From: Streptomyces sp. NBC_00289
GTDB taxonomy: Bacteria > Actinomycetota > Actinomycetes > Streptomycetales > Streptomycetaceae
Length of the DNA: 64,000 bases
Direction of reading: 5' to 3'
NCBI RefSeq assembly: GCF_041435115.1
Contig: NZ_CP108046.1
Coordinates: forward strand, 2,666,001-2,730,000
Under the pieces are notes generated by a model. It searched no databases. It was not told the DNA's origin and worked only from the letters and a program-made list of their open reading frames with translations. Positions 57,530 to 64,000 of the stretch are shown one piece after another; the stretch's first letter is position 1, and each line of letters begins with the position of its first letter. A program made the translations under genes and the position numbers.

Positions 57530-60037
57530 TCAGTCGGTGGTGCGCCTCTCCATGAGGTTCTGCCGGTGACGTTCGAAAATGTTGCGCGCCGTGGCGTCGT
57601 CGAAGTCCGGTGCGTCGGCATACAGCTCCGGTGCGAACTCGGCGGAAGCGGGGTCAGCGCCCAGGGCCGCGTCGGCCTCTCGGGCCGACAGCACGACCCA
57701 GCACCGTTCCGGGTCGACCGATACGATCCTCACGAAGATGTCCTCCCCGCTCCCGACGGCGAGCATGTTCGACGCGATCTGGTCGTCGGCCAGTTCGTCG
57801 AAATCGACCCACCCTCTGACACCGTCCGCCACTCTGAGGAAGAGACCGTTCGAGGCGGTCTCGACCACGGTCCCCCGGACGATCCGGCCCGCACGATGGG
57901 TTTCCGTGAAGCGCTGCCAGGAGGTCTTCTCACCCTCGATGAGTTCCAGGTAGACCTGCCCGCCCGACCGGTCGACCGCGGAGATCCGGGCCGTGACCAG
58001 GTCGCCAACCGCGACTCGGCCCGTCTCCAGGTCGGCCAGGTCGAGCAGGCCCCGAAAGCTCCCGAGGTTCACGACGACATCCTGCGACTGAACTCCGGTG
58101 ACTCTGCCGGTGCGCACGTGCCCGACTTGCACATGGGCCAGCCACTCCTGCGGCCGCAGCTTCTCCGCCTCTTCAAGCCAGGCCCGTCGGGAGAGGAGCA
58201 CCGAACCAGAGCGGTGCACCCATGCCTTGGCGTCAAGGATCTGCCCCACGTAGCGCTGCGGGTCGCGTACCGGCCCCTCCTCGATGTCCGCCGTGGGCAG
58301 CAACGCGGTACCGCTCCCGACCTCCACCGCGAGACCCTCCGCGACCACCTCGAGGACCCGGCCCGAGACCGTCACACCGTCCGACGCCAGGCCGACGGAC
58401 GCGGCCAGGGTACGGCGCCTGCGGGCCTCTTCCCACAGCGGCTCCCGCATCGAGAGCAGCAGCCGGCCCTCGTAGCCCTGCTCGCACCCGATGACCACGG
58501 CCTCCAGCTCGTCCCCGTAGGCCACGAGCTCGCTGGGATGTCCGATGTCGGGGTCCGGCAGGGAGTGGCGGAGGACGACGCCCCGGTCGATGTCGCCGAC
58601 CTCGACCTCCACCTCGTGCTGGTCGATCTCCGACACGACGCCTCTCACCAAGGCGCCGAGGGGGTAACCCACGCCGCCCGAAGCGGACCTCGGGCCGTGG
58701 AAGGGGACGATGCGAACGTTGCTCGCCACCGTGCCGTCCCCGGGCGTCGGCGGCCGGCCCAGCGCGCCCACCGCCTCCCGGAACGACCGGTAGACCTCCC
58801 CGTCCTCCTGCCAGTCCACCAGGGTCCGCACCAGCGTCGTACCACCGATGTCGCGCCCGTCCTCGTCGCCTGCGGCCATCCGGCGGCAGGTGGCCGCCGA
58901 GGCGCTCACCAGCCGGGTCACGGGATGCCGTTTTCCCAACAACTCGCCGAACTGCAGGGCTCGTTCGGCGAGGGCGTCCGCCGTGCGCTGCGCCTTTCCT
59001 GGGGCCGGGAGCGCTCGCACCATCTCCACCTGAGCCGCGACCAGATTGGTCAGGGCTGCCACAGTGCGCGGGTGGGCGGGACCGAGCCGGATCTCCAGGC
59101 GCTGCGCGGTCGCGCCAAGCAGCCGTACGGCCCGATCCAGGCGGTCGGGCGACCGCACCGCGCGCGCCGCCTCGATCTGGACGGCGGCCAGGTCCGCCTG
59201 GACCCCGAGGGCTTTGGGGTGGTCCGCGCCGAGCAGGGTCGCGAGCCGCTGGGCGGCCACCTCGAGGACCTTGACCACGGTCTCCAGGTCGTCTGTGTCA
59301 CCAGCCTCCACTGCTGCCCCAGCGCGCGCCAGAGCGAAGTTCGCAACGGCGAGGAAGGCGCGCGGGTCGGATCGGTCGAGACCGTCGAGCTTCCGGCCGG
59401 TGTGCTGCGCGAGGGTGTACAGGGCGCGGGTGCAGTGGTCGCCGTACCGCGGGGCGAAGCCGAGGAGTTGGTGCTCCACGGCATCCAGGACGGTACTCAG
59501 TTCCCGTACCGCCGGGGCGTCGGACTCAGGGAGCCGTTCGAGCATCGCGCGTGCGGCGAGCGCGTGGTCGACCGCCGGGTCGACGTTGCCGAGCCCCGCT
59601 TCGGCCGCGGCGAGATTCACGCGGGTGGCCACCGCGGCCGGCGAAAGACGGGGCTCGCCGTCCAGCCGCGCGCACCGGAGCACCGCTCGCGCCGCCGTCT
59701 GCTGTCCCAGGGAGATGCCCAGCACACCGAGGCAGTTGACGAACGGCTCGCCCTGCTCGCCCCACTCGGACTCGGGTACGCCGTATCGGTCGAGCCGCTC
59801 GGCCAGGAGCCGGAACATGCGCTCCGCCTCCTGGCGCAGGCCCAGTTCGAGGAGGTGCCGACCGAGGCGCAGTCCCGCAGCACCCGTCTCCGGGCCCCAG
59901 GCCTCGTTGACGAGGCAGCTCTCGGCGCGCACGTCGAGGAACCGCATCAGGCTCGCCAGGAGTGCGAACCGCGTCTCATCTGTACGGCTCAGGGCCGCCT
60001 CGGCGCAGTCGACGGCCTCGGCGAGGGAGTCAATCAT
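57530..60037 (-). CDS. TPR protein with four S1 RNA-binding domains
   Basis: An 835-aa protein. Residues 1-390 are helical with TPR_10-like repeats (LLGADHPKALGVQADLAAV, RLGPAHPRTVAALTNLVAA, LLGKRHPVTRLV). Residues 455-820 contain four S1 domains, starting near GALVRGVVSEI, VSGRVLEVVAE, RTGRVTGVQSQ and VRGTVVETASN. The S1 array resembles ribosomal protein S1, but the TPR fusion and the context are unlike RpsA. It probably binds RNA and a protein partner. Its ATG overlaps the end of the pseudo-trypsin gene by eight bases. A terminator follows the stop. Confidence 0.82.
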   Translation of the reverse strand: MIDSLAEAVDCAEAALSRTDETRFALLASLMRFLDVRAESCLVNEAWGPETGAAGLRLGRHLLELGLRQEAERMFRLLAERLDRYGVPESEWGEQGEPFVNCLGVLGISLGQQTAARAVLRCARLDGEPRLSPAAVATRVNLAAAEAGLGNVDPAVDHALAARAMLERLPESDAPAVRELSTVLDAVEHQLLGFAPRYGDHCTRALYTLAQHTGRKLDGLDRSDPRAFLAVANFALARAGAAVEAGDTDDLETVVKVLEVAAQRLATLLGADHPKALGVQADLAAVQIEAARAVRSPDRLDRAVRLLGATAQRLEIRLGPAHPRTVAALTNLVAAQVEMVRALPAPGKAQRTADALAERALQFGELLGKRHPVTRLVSASAATCRRMAAGDEDGRDIGGTTLVRTLVDWQEDGEVYRSFREAVGALGRPPTPGDGTVASNVRIVPFHGPRSASGGVGYPLGALVRGVVSEIDQHEVEVEVGDIDRGVVLRHSLPDPDIGHPSELVAYGDELEAVVIGCEQGYEGRLLLSMREPLWEEARRRRTLAASVGLASDGVTVSGRVLEVVAEGLAVEVGSGTALLPTADIEEGPVRDPQRYVGQILDAKAWVHRSGSVLLSRRAWLEEAEKLRPQEWLAHVQVGHVRTGRVTGVQSQDVVVNLGSFRGLLDLADLETGRVAVGDLVTARISAVDRSGGQVYLELIEGEKTSWQRFTETHRAGRIVRGTVVETASNGLFLRVADGVRGWVDFDELADDQIASNMLAVGSGEDIFVRIVSVDPERCWVVLSAREADAALGADPASAEFAPELYADAPDFDDATARNIFERHRQNLMERRTTD

Positions 60038-60884
60038 GCGCCTCCGCTCCCTTGGCGGCCTGTACCACCACGTCCAGCATCGCGATCTGATAGGGCGGCA
60101 GATCCCGCTCGTCGACGATGCCCTCCGCCGCCCAGTCGCGGAACTTGCGCAGCCCGAACTCCACCGCGTCCATCACCGCCGCCACCTCGTCCCGCCGGGA
60201 TCCGTCCGGCGTCTCGGGTGGGTCGGGCGTCTCCACGGCCATGGCGGCTGGATCCCGCTCTGTGAGCAGTCCCAGCATGCGGTGCGGGTTGAGCCCGTCG
60301 AAGGCATCGATGACACCACCGATGTCCCCCGCCACGAGCGGGCTTCCCTGATCGCCCCGGATCCCCCGCGCGTACTCGGCCTCCAGGAGCACACCCAGAA
60401 CGGTCTCCTGCCGGCCGGTTTCGTGCCGCTCGACAGGGCCGCCCGCATAACCGTTGGCACCGACCAGGCCCAGTTGCTCGCCCACGGTGAGTTCGAGGAT
60501 GGACAGGGCACGGTCGGCGTCGGTGCGACGGCAGGGGGACAGAACGTCCTCCACCGTGCCACACAGCGGCGGGTGTGCGGGGCCCGGCCGGTAGGGGGCC
60601 CGCCAGGAGTCGCCCTTGACGGCGCGGTCGGCCCTCGGCGTCGGGTAGTCGACGCGCGCGGGTACCACCACGTGGACCAGTGCGAGCCCGACGTCCTCGG
60701 CGATCTCGTCCACGACACCGCGCAGCCCACGTCCTTCCGCAGTCCGCAGCTCCACTTCGCTGCCCAGACCCGCGACCGGCAGGCAGCCGGCCGAGGTCAC
60801 CACGAAATGCCGCGTCACGAAGAAGCCGGCGCCGTACAGGACACCGTCCTGGGAGATGGCAACCCAGTATTCCTCGCGCCCCAT
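60030..60884 (-). CDS. Catalytically dead trypsin-like protein
   Basis: A 284-aa cytoplasmic protein, no signal peptide, with a trypsin-like fold. The usual GAGFxVxxxxVLTxAHC region reads GAGFFVTRHFVVTSAGCLP, so the catalytic His is Gly. The usual GDSGSPL reads GDQGSPLVAG, so the Ser is Gln. The Asp region EDVGLALVHV is kept. The last 60 residues form a helical tail (VAAVMDAVEFGLRKFRDWAAEG). It probably acts as a scaffold or adaptor. It is coupled to the S1 gene by an eight-base overlap. Confidence 0.8.
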   Translation of the reverse strand: MGREEYWVAISQDGVLYGAGFFVTRHFVVTSAGCLPVAGLGSEVELRTAEGRGLRGVVDEIAEDVGLALVHVVVPARVDYPTPRADRAVKGDSWRAPYRPGPAHPPLCGTVEDVLSPCRRTDADRALSILELTVGEQLGLVGANGYAGGPVERHETGRQETVLGVLLEAEYARGIRGDQGSPLVAGDIGGVIDAFDGLNPHRMLGLLTERDPAAMAVETPDPPETPDGSRRDEVAAVMDAVEFGLRKFRDWAAEGIVDERDLPPYQIAMLDVVVQAAKGAEAHD

Positions 60885-60966
60885 CCAGTCCCTCTGCTAG
60901 GTCGCTCCTCAACGCCGTGGCTGCGCCCCGGCGGTCTTGAGGCAGCGTACCGCCACCGGCATCCGC

Positions 60967-62427
60967 TCACCCTCGTCCCAGGACCCGCCGGGCCCCCGCG
61001 ACCACCGCGGTGGCCAGCACCCACCCGGACACCACGAGCACGATCGCCACCGCCTTGTCAACCCCGACGGGGTCCCAACTCCCGCGGTATCCGAGGCTCG
61101 CGACGGGGATGAGAAGGTCCAGGCTGTACAGCACCGGGTCCCAGGCGCGTGAAGCGTTTCCCCCCACCGGGCGGGGCGGGTGGTGGGCAAACCACAGGGA
61201 CCCGGCGGCGGCGAGGGACAGCAGCCACATCAAAGCGCGGCGGGGTGCGTATCCGTAGCCGAAGAGGACGTCCTGCAACAAGCCCCACACACGGCCTGTC
61301 AGCCGGTCGTGGCGGCGCAGATGGCGCTCGCGGGCGTGCCGTACGACGCGCGCCGCGCGTTCGTCGCCCGCAGCCTGGTACGACGCGGCCAGTTGCTCGA
61401 AGGAGCCGGCACCCACCCGCGGGTCACGGGTCAGCCAGCCGGTGCGCGAGCGCACGTCCACGGGCCGGATCGATTCGAGCCGCTTGTAGGTGAAACCTTC
61501 GAGGGAGAGAGCGCCCGGGGGCGGCCACGTCGCCTCGGAGTCCACGAGGACATCGACCGTCGCGTCCTGCAGCACCACCGGCCCGGCGGGCGGCTCACGC
61601 AGGTCGAGTCTGAGCCGGGGCACCCGCAGCCGGCTCAGCAACAGGGAGCCCGCGGGCGCCGTGAGGACGCTGTCGTGAAAGGTGACCACGCCGCCCACAT
61701 CGGCGCCGCGGAGCAGGACTTGGCCCGTGCTGCGGAATCCCCAGTCGGCATACAGGCCCCCGGCGCACACGAGACCGGTCGCGTCGAGTCCGCCGACCTG
61801 TGCTCCGTCGAGGTTGGCAGCGTAGGAGACGCGCGCGTCGCGGAGATACAGGGCGCCAGAGGTCTGCAGGCCCCGGGCGTGCAGCGTGCCTCCGATGTTG
61901 AGGCGGGGTGCGAGCACCGACCATTGGCCGGGATCGGCCACGTCCAGGTCATCGAGGACGAGGTTGCCCGATATGCGCGCATCGGCGAGCCGGAGGACGC
62001 CTCCCGTGCTTCCCTCCCGCACCCGGCGGGGCGCACGGACCGTCTCCGTCGCGGACGGGTCCCGCAGGGGCACGGACTCCGCGCCGCCTCCCCCGAGCCG
62101 GGCGCCGCGTAGCAGCAGTTCGCCCTCGACGGTGATCCGGTCGGCGGACACGGCGGGCATCCGCGACCGGGAGAGGTCGAGACCGCGGACGGTCAGCTCG
62201 GTCAGCCGCAGAGGCGTGTCGAACTCGCACTCGACCAAGGCCAATCCGCTGTCCAGACGCCACCGGCTCAGATCGAGGGGGCCCTGCACCCGCAAGCCCT
62301 CGAAGCGGAGGGAATCCTCGCGCCCCGGCTCCCGTCCGGTGATCGCCTCCCGCAGCCGGGCCGCGTCCACCGTGGCACCCCGGCCCGGCGGCCAGTCCGG
62401 ACGCCGACTCCCCCTGTTTCGCGCCAT
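60967..62427 (-). CDS. Beta-helix membrane protein
   Basis: A 486-aa protein. Residues 35-330 are a series of short repeats (for example LRFEGLRVQGPLDLSRW, GGVLRLADARISGNLVLDDL, GALYLRDARVSYAANLDGA) typical of pentapeptide-like or right-handed beta-helix folds. A helical stretch (FEQLAASYQAAGDERAARVVRHARERHLRRH) follows, then two or three membrane helices (about 405-480). Related Streptomyces proteins are sometimes labelled membrane-associated oxidoreductase without evidence. The ATG at 62427 has GGGGAGG upstream. It leads the three-gene operon ending at 57530 and is divergent from the kinase gene. Confidence 0.78.
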   Translation of the reverse strand: MARNRGSRRPDWPPGRGATVDAARLREAITGREPGREDSLRFEGLRVQGPLDLSRWRLDSGLALVECEFDTPLRLTELTVRGLDLSRSRMPAVSADRITVEGELLLRGARLGGGGAESVPLRDPSATETVRAPRRVREGSTGGVLRLADARISGNLVLDDLDVADPGQWSVLAPRLNIGGTLHARGLQTSGALYLRDARVSYAANLDGAQVGGLDATGLVCAGGLYADWGFRSTGQVLLRGADVGGVVTFHDSVLTAPAGSLLLSRLRVPRLRLDLREPPAGPVVLQDATVDVLVDSEATWPPPGALSLEGFTYKRLESIRPVDVRSRTGWLTRDPRVGAGSFEQLAASYQAAGDERAARVVRHARERHLRRHDRLTGRVWGLLQDVLFGYGYAPRRALMWLLSLAAAGSLWFAHHPPRPVGGNASRAWDPVLYSLDLLIPVASLGYRGSWDPVGVDKAVAIVLVVSGWVLATAVVAGARRVLGRG

Positions 62428-62488
62428 GGTGACCTCCCCTTCTCCCCAGGACGCATATCACGTACGAGACTTCTCCAACCCCCGCCGC

Positions 62489-64000
62489 ATGGATACTGAG
62501 TCGATGGATCCATCCCCCTTCACCCCCTTCGGCGACCGCGCCGCGGAGTTGCTGGACCAGTGGCAGCGGCAGAATCACCGGACGCTGGGCACTCCCACGT
62601 TTCTGGAGACCGGGGGCAGCGGTGCCCTGCTGGCCTCCGTGGTCGTGCGGGACAGGGATCCCCGCCACCCCCGGCGCAGGATGATCATCAAGCTCTGCGC
62701 GGCTGACGAAGAGGCCTCGGTGGAGCCGGGCGGGCTGAAGGCCGCCTGGTTGTCCCGGCCCGTCGGCAACCAGTCGTTCCCCGAGGCCCACCTCGTCGAG
62801 CAGCTCTACGACCCCATGCCGGTGGACGACGCCTGGATGATGTTCCAGCGAATCGCCGGCGACGGCCAGGACATGGTCACGCTGGGCACCGTCGTCCGGA
62901 AGCGACAGTCTCGGCTGCCCGACATCGCCGCGGCGGTCGGGCGGTCCCTGCTGGCCGACTGGAATCCGGACGAGCAGGGCGGCAAGTCCATGAGCGCGGC
63001 GGAGTTCGTCGCGACTGTCCTCGACCGGCGCCTCGGTCCGAAGGCCCCGCTCGCCCGGTGGGCCCGGGACGAACTCGGCATCTCCCTCTCCGACCCATGG
63101 ATCCTGCTGCCTGAGAAGCCGGGAGAACTGCCCAACCCGCTTCACCTGGCGGAGGGTGGCCCGCTTTCCAGGGGCGTCGTGGACGACCCGGTCCGTGGGC
63201 GCGCCCACGGCGATCTCCACCCCGGCAACATCATGGTTCCGGAACGGCAGGACGTGGGTGTCGGCTCGTACCGGCTCATCGACCTGACGCGGTTCAGCGC
63301 GGACGCGCTCCTCGCCCGCGATCCGGTCCACCTCATGCTGTACCTGGTCGCCGAGTTCCTGCCGCACCTGTCGGACGAGGCCCGTGCCGAGGTCCTCGTC
63401 CTGCTCATCGGCCGGAAGGCGACCGGTCTGCTGGTCCCACAGGGGCTGCGGCGGATCGTGGACGGCCTGCGGGAAGCTCCCGGGCCGTGGCTCGACGAGC
63501 GGGACATCGGGCCGGGGTGGGAAGTTCAGTGGATGCTGGCGATCCAGGCGTGCGCGCTGATGTTCGCCGGGCGGCGGAAGAAGTACGACAGCCGGATCCG
63601 ACGCTGGTTCTTCCTGCTCGCAGCGGAGGCCGCGGCCGTGTCGTTGCGACGTTTCGAAGCGTACGCCCCCGAGGAGGCGGTGGTGGTGCGGGCGCCGTCG
63701 GAGGTGGTGGCACAAGCCGCCCGAGCGTCTGTGGCCGTGACCCGGGTGCCGGTGGCGGTGGCGGATGCCGTCGCGACTGCGACGACCACGGACGCGACGG
63801 CGCCTGCCGAGCAGGGCCTCGTGGCGTCCCTCCTGGCGGCCCGCGAGGCTCTCACCTTCCCGACGCACCGGCTCGGGTCCCAGAGTGCGACGAACGTGAC
63901 ATCGCATGAGTTGAGAGCCGTCGTGAACCGGGCGCAGCACGCCAGGCAGCAGGTCGAGGAGTTACTGGAGCGCGACTTCGCCGGTCTCGCCGAACCGGCG
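62489..64000 (+). CDS. Phosphotransferase-type kinase, C-terminus outside window
   Basis: A partial gene with 504 codons in the window and no stop before 64000. The APH-like kinase fold shows a glycine loop (TGGSGALLASVVV), the nucleotide Lys in RRMIIKLC, the catalytic loop RAHGDLHPGNIMV and the metal Asp in YRLIDLTRF, all intact. A helical part follows, then an Ala/Val/Thr-rich linker, then the start of another helical segment (ELRAVVNRAQHARQQVEELL). Leu in EELLE is encoded by TTA (63962-63964), so bldA control is expected. ATG 62504 is an alternative start. It may phosphorylate a protein or small molecule. Confidence 0.75.
   Translation, partial: MDTESMDPSPFTPFGDRAAELLDQWQRQNHRTLGTPTFLETGGSGALLASVVVRDRDPRHPRRRMIIKLCAADEEASVEPGGLKAAWLSRPVGNQSFPEAHLVEQLYDPMPVDDAWMMFQRIAGDGQDMVTLGTVVRKRQSRLPDIAAAVGRSLLADWNPDEQGGKSMSAAEFVATVLDRRLGPKAPLARWARDELGISLSDPWILLPEKPGELPNPLHLAEGGPLSRGVVDDPVRGRAHGDLHPGNIMVPERQDVGVGSYRLIDLTRFSADALLARDPVHLMLYLVAEFLPHLSDEARAEVLVLLIGRKATGLLVPQGLRRIVDGLREAPGPWLDERDIGPGWEVQWMLAIQACALMFAGRRKKYDSRIRRWFFLLAAEAAAVSLRRFEAYAPEEAVVVRAPSEVVAQAARASVAVTRVPVAVADAVATATTTDATAPAEQGLVASLLAAREALTFPTHRLGSQSATNVTSHELRAVVNRAQHARQQVEELLERDFAGLAEPA

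Follow-up and report, generated by a model that had tools for sequence, protein, structure and literature searches.

What could bring together, in a single block of a Streptomyces genome, a protein with TPR and S1 parts, a trypsin-like protein, a membrane protein and a kinase? The question is raised by four genes at one end of the window, by which is meant the whole analysed stretch of 64,000 nucleotides (G000:C1:2666001-2730000, within an 11.0-Mb Streptomyces genome). Comparison with related loci suggests an answer that may well be right while falling somewhat short of likely: the block would represent, in a version with four genes, a conflict-type module of Streptomycetaceae that changes fast and uses copies of host proteins as bait. 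All four genes were found in the list of open reading frames (ORFs) and the Pfam scan. The TPR-S1 protein (835 aa, 57530..60037, minus strand) is encoded by an ORF with Pfam S1 matches in four stretches, which overlaps by 8 bp with the gene of the trypsin-like pseudoprotease (284 aa, 60030..60884, minus strand); 82 bp separate the latter from the gene of the membrane beta-helix protein (486 aa, 60967..62427, minus strand), and a further 61 bp lie between this gene and the start of the divergent kinase gene on the plus strand. The first-pass annotation, which had described this arrangement as a block, was right in this respect.

The part of the block found most consistently elsewhere is the pair of trypsin and TPR genes. 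In 37/37 loci having a trypsin-profile match, the gene immediately downstream of the trypsin gene, on the same strand, encodes a TPR homologue, and in 26 of them the trypsin stop and an in-frame TPR start overlap, by 4 or 8 bp. These loci were gathered from searches of family, genus, class and named genomes; two weak hits without a trypsin-profile match (L035 and L036) were excluded from the 37, and G423:C28:60263 and most hits weaker than ~1e-5 are outside the set. The conserved part of the TPR family corresponds to residues 1-390 of the window protein (58868..60037, minus strand); it has profile matches at all the trypsin loci and forms a TPR-like helical solenoid in a structure model that also contains S1 folds (mean pLDDT 74, pTM 0.42). 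Trypsin matches were obtained in 10/121 genomes of the family, from three genera, and in 8/394 of the class, six being Streptomyces and two lying elsewhere at ~1e-3, so that the module looks confined to Streptomycetaceae at the search sensitivity used.

The module behind the TPR part differs from locus to locus. In 18/37 loci it can be identified as RpsA, AfsR, a SigF-like sigma factor, NsdA, DUF742 or SCO5555, and in 11/37 it is complete: RpsA in L107, AfsR in L122, L129, L131 and L132 (above the curated score) and in L125 and L128 (by alignment), the SigF-like sigma factor in L126, an NsdA-family protein in L133 (426 bits, cut-off 75), SCO5555 in L140 and DUF742 in L206. RpsA is near-complete but diverged in the window, L026 and L027, and partial, being cut by a contig end, in L108; AfsR is represented by its N-terminal part or by domains in L124, L127 and L130. 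Other modules are a HAD part (L134), CHAT (L123), and weak matches to a hydrolase (L207) and SCO2524 (L028). Nothing was recognised beyond TPR in the remaining loci, and L106, which has all four genes, gave no RpsA match. Exchange of the modules is evident from sister trypsins adjoining different ones, namely HAD and SCO5555 (100/98) and CHAT and DUF742 (99/92). Some genomes carry two or three trypsin-TPR loci with differing modules (G423, on C1 and twice on C28; G294, on C2 and C193).

In the window, the module is a copy of ribosomal protein S1. Residues 461-815 (57593..58657, minus strand), with an RpsA-like C-terminal tail behind them, share 37% identity with the native RpsA of the same genome; the array is a diverged, near-complete RpsA copy, in register and including the tail, and the best structural matches of its S1 folds are ribosomal protein S1. 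The NCBIfam equivalog for 30S protein S1 gives it 176.8 bits, below the cut-off of 691, and gives L107 947.6 bits, above it. S1 domains are present in all ten database relatives of the window protein, from a homologue search that, like the others made, scored only candidates sharing most words, and two of these relatives (P0025 and P0027) are without S1 domain 3 and retain domain 4 and the RpsA-like tail. In an alignment with the RpsA of G127 as reference, all 6 relatives retaining domain 3 have other residues in place of its motif FGAF...VHVSEL, and the domain-4 His is replaced in 8/8 rows, the domain-4 aromatic residue being retained in some. These are positions that we take to be RNA contacts of S1, and the window's copy thus appears to have lost those of domain 3 and part of those of domain 4. 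The first-pass annotation had considered a role in RNA surveillance; that idea was abandoned: the S1 array is no generic RNA-surveillance part but copies RpsA in register, as far as the tail, and RNA-contact positions appear to be lost from it.

How did such copies arise? In an extreme case, the single-contig genome G127 carries a fused rpsA at 5.31 Mb and a native one at 2.64 Mb, which agree at 1453/1457 bp (99.7% DNA identity), an identity that begins at native codon 12 and breaks off at most seven bases before the stop codon is complete. G143 has a joint similar to that of G127, its TPR protein being 74% identical over 519 aligned residues with dS 0.49; its contigs break inside both rpsA copies, so that the middle is missing and is presumed to be identical as well. 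Since an old TPR-RpsA joint carries a nearly identical copy, conversion or re-capture is suggested. The fused sigma factor of G389 is 98% identical in amino acids and 96.7% in DNA to one native gene, the next native paralogue being 63% identical in amino acids, and its mismatches cluster, leaving an identical run of up to 280 of 763 columns (permutation P 0.006). Gene conversion between fused and native copies is thus suggested, not proven. An assembly chimera is an unlikely source of the TPR-RpsA joint, given the unbroken contig of G127 and, in G143, contig breaks within each of the two copies. Relocation of a native gene was rejected for the RpsA of G127, the sigma factor of G389 and AfsR, which all have separate native genes; the check covered these three proteins, and NsdA, DUF742 and SCO5555 were outside it.

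The seven fused AfsR proteins are more diverged, with 68-83% identity to their own native gene and, in all seven, longer branches than nearby natives. In the AfsR tree the fused copies of G203 and G362 each form a supported pair with the native gene of their genome, and that of G430 is nearer to the native AfsR of another genome, a pattern indicating at least three captures. Judged from the sequences, then, host genes have been captured by the scaffold repeatedly. Loss of the P-loop in captured AfsR was considered and rejected; a strict motif search had misled, and the Walker A GKT, like Walker B, is retained in 7/7, which makes simple decay a disfavoured explanation. In G219 (C1:5549577-5558951), three AfsR-like genes stand in a row.

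There is a more complicated form of the module, to which the window belongs. All three catalytic residues of its trypsin-like protein are gone (G33, G66 and A147 at the positions of His, Asp and Ser); the first-pass annotation had correctly noticed the loss of His and Ser and had missed that of Asp. The protein itself has no Pfam match, and relatives that are 31-37% identical to it score above the cut-off of Trypsin_2. His, Asp and Ser are likewise absent from all 6 kinase-linked trypsins and from 12 database rows, two of which are identical to L026 and L027, and these 18 rows form one clade (100/99) in a tree that carries long-branch warnings. None of the other 31 loci, which are without the kinase pair, lacks all three residues: the triad is intact in 25, and Ser alone is lost in 6 (L032, L137, L138, L139, L208 and L209). 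Because the link between the dead trypsin and the kinase pair amounts to a single clade, no significance value is given for it. The dead trypsin is under purifying selection, with dN/dS of 0.37-0.50 among the window, L026 and L027, which is below one and above the values of flanking genes (0.15-0.28).

The kinase gene, of APH type and related to Pfam TCAD9, occupies 62489..64000 within the window and runs past it to 64210 in window numbering (L004:6489-8210, 573 aa). Its motif HGDLHPGN (residues 240-247, 63206..63229, plus strand) is retained, and K68, D242, N247 and D265 are invariant across 6 aligned proteins, so that the intact phosphotransferase-type kinase of the first-pass annotation still looks intact. 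Kinase relatives at L111:4993-9048 and L038:1456-4227 are fused to STAND/AAA-type NTPase domains, recognised by weak Pfam matches. As had also been proposed, the membrane protein is modelled as a beta-helix, confidently so for most of residues 20-250, and its C-terminal helices are poorly predicted; a weak Pentapeptide_3 match is below the cut-off, and Foldseek found nothing below 0.001, the best match being a beta-helix enzyme at 0.013. Among the window, L026 and L027, the C-terminal half of this protein is far better conserved than the N-terminal half.

The four genes occur together at 6 loci (the window, which is L004, and L026, L027, L106, L107 and L108), as expected of a conserved unit; Streptomyces sp. 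SID12501 (L026) and Streptomyces sp. GQFP (L027) have the same order, orientation and chromosomal site as the window. In a search of 392 genomes of the genus, kinase matches were found in 22 and trypsin matches in 31 at E <=0.001. At the nine strongest kinase loci (E <1e-68; two of the nine genomes were equated with those of L026 and L027 from coordinates), the membrane gene divergently adjoins the kinase in 9/9, and trypsin and TPR genes are also present in 6/9, being absent from L109, L110 and L111. No trypsin or membrane match was found near the seven weaker genus kinase loci that were fetched (L112-L118). Pfam scans of genes flanking the block identify a polysaccharide deacetylase and an SRPBCC protein to one side; those to the other side encode XdhC, a purine permease, two xanthine-dehydrogenase-type subunits and PucR. 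Between SRPBCC and XdhC lie all four genes in the window, L026, L027 and L106, kinase and membrane genes in L109 and L110, and, of the four, the kinase alone in L114. Between L026 and L027, ~2 kb over the 5' parts of the kinase and membrane genes are 57-68% identical within surroundings of mostly 80-96%, as if the segment had been swapped as a unit. A fragment of a DDE transposase (L107:1-261) lies ~6 kb from the four-gene block that bears the pristine RpsA copy.

A conflict system fits these observations better than a housekeeping function, because a constant scaffold bears exchangeable copies of host hubs, the distribution is sparse and alleles are swapped; a conflict role of the block is plausible. 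The copies of host core proteins, one of them nearly identical to its original, suggest a molecular bait. The core of such a system would be the trypsin-like protein and the TPR scaffold, encoded by overlapping or adjoining genes, with the exchangeable module, often a host-protein copy, borne at the C-terminus of the scaffold. Most likely as bait, the copy would also be struck by an invader factor aimed at the real RpsA, AfsR or sigma factor, and the scaffold would relay this event to its partner, which in the two-gene form is mostly a protease that has kept its triad. In the window form, a dead trypsin takes the partner's place, probably as an adaptor, and proteolysis as the output would have given way to the membrane beta-helix protein and the active-looking kinase, which presumably phosphorylates some substrate. 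Any anti-phage effect is inferred, like the bait role and the path of the signal. If the bait reading is true, the captured genes name the host hubs attacked by Streptomyces invaders, and each of them is a testable prediction. A bolder version, possible and held with more doubt, is a Streptomyces immune receptor family whose sensors arise when core genes of the host cell itself (rpsA, afsR, a sigma factor and nsdA) are copied onto the TPR scaffold, in which a copy can be kept matched to its original, perhaps via gene conversion, and whose protease output has been replaced by a membrane-kinase output in one lineage.

Several results weigh against the bait reading. The module is not a recognised copy of a core protein in 19/37 loci, and five of seven fused AfsR proteins have no supported sister pairing with their own native gene. 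No PADLOC profile matched any of the 4 window proteins at E <=0.01, relatives matching the models Avs1b, LmuA and MzaA in trypsin or sigma parts only; no known defence gene was found among the nearby genes scanned, and no trypsin match in the plasmid and phage collections. Moreover, the persistent Walker motifs of fused AfsR and the functional look of the fused sigma factor and of the G127 RpsA would also fit working regulators.

This last point leads to the main rival, which is on the unlikely side: the TPR part would cage an additional, functional regulator copy (AfsR, sigma factor, NsdA or RpsA), the adjacent trypsin would free it under stress or in development, and the window lineage would have lost cutting and come under kinase control instead. 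The copies are indeed often complete with motifs retained, the triad is intact in those 25 of 31 two-gene loci, and several of the copied genes are presumably developmental or global regulators. Against such a switch stand the turnover of modules between sister loci and the modules HAD and CHAT, which are no regulators; RpsA is not a typical switched regulator either, and the window's copy is without some RNA-contact positions. If it were true, it would be a new way of placing a global regulator under proteolytic control.

Less probable still is a dominant-negative effector, in which the TPR-bound copy, once triggered, takes the place of its native counterpart (that of S1 on the ribosome or of sigma on the polymerase), halting growth and limiting the spread of infection. 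Complete RpsA and sigma copies could still bind the ribosome or polymerase, and such modules are proposed for related systems by Kaur et al. (PMC7159879), but AfsR, DUF742 and SCO5555 would be poor targets for growth arrest, and the window copy, at 37% identity to RpsA, may no longer bind. The first-pass annotation would have taken homologues occurring independently as a refutation of its system, and for single genes this is partly seen: the membrane family matches in 104/121 family genomes, counting paralogues, the S1 part in 121/121 (evidently native rpsA), and kinase and membrane genes stand without trypsin-TPR at 3 of the nine strongest kinase loci. That a recombination-prone region joined four unrelated genes by chance, their proteins having no common task, is improbable. 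The common membrane family and the three kinase-membrane pairs would fit it, as would G059 and G055, which have the trypsin-TPR pair and a kinase match on separate contigs; against it, trypsin and TPR are never apart at the 37 loci, the copies are complete and in frame, and the dead trypsin is under purifying selection in a clade tied to the kinase pair.

Among known systems, the nearest are the predicted MoxR-vWA ternary conflict systems (VMAP and relatives) of multicellular actinobacteria, for which Kaur et al. (2020; PMC7159879) describe inactive trypsins, APH-superfamily kinases, TPRs and host-borrowed modules and propose action as decoys or dominant negatives. The window block likewise has an inactive trypsin, an APH-like kinase, TPRs and a borrowed host module; unlike in those systems, as far as described there, it is the trypsin-TPR pair that stays constant here, and what is borrowed is often a complete and recent copy of a host gene. 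Neither MoxR nor vWA was found among the 7 flanking genes of the block scanned with Pfam, nor VMAP in the flanking genes scanned. The kinase resembles TCAD9 (PF19974, ternary complex associated domain 9), which most of its 57 database relatives carry by precomputed annotation, but its own match of 23.3 bits is below the curated cut-off of 40, and it is a stand-alone gene facing a membrane gene. In plants, immune receptors with integrated decoys consist of a constant frame fused to exchangeable copies of pathogen-targeted host proteins. Here, too, copies of host proteins have been captured again and again by one constant frame, which may work in a like manner; an NB-ARC receptor frame is absent. 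In bacteria, PARIS and Panoptes are guard or decoy systems that sense invader factors by a logic like that proposed here; copies of host regulators are not described for them in the part of the review available (PMC12409349). The pseudo-trypsin, the APH kinase, the TPRs and the borrowed host modules are thus each of a known kind. In searches of an open-licence library no description was found of a constant two-gene scaffold that repeatedly acquires complete copies of its host's own core genes, and this is what appears to be new here.

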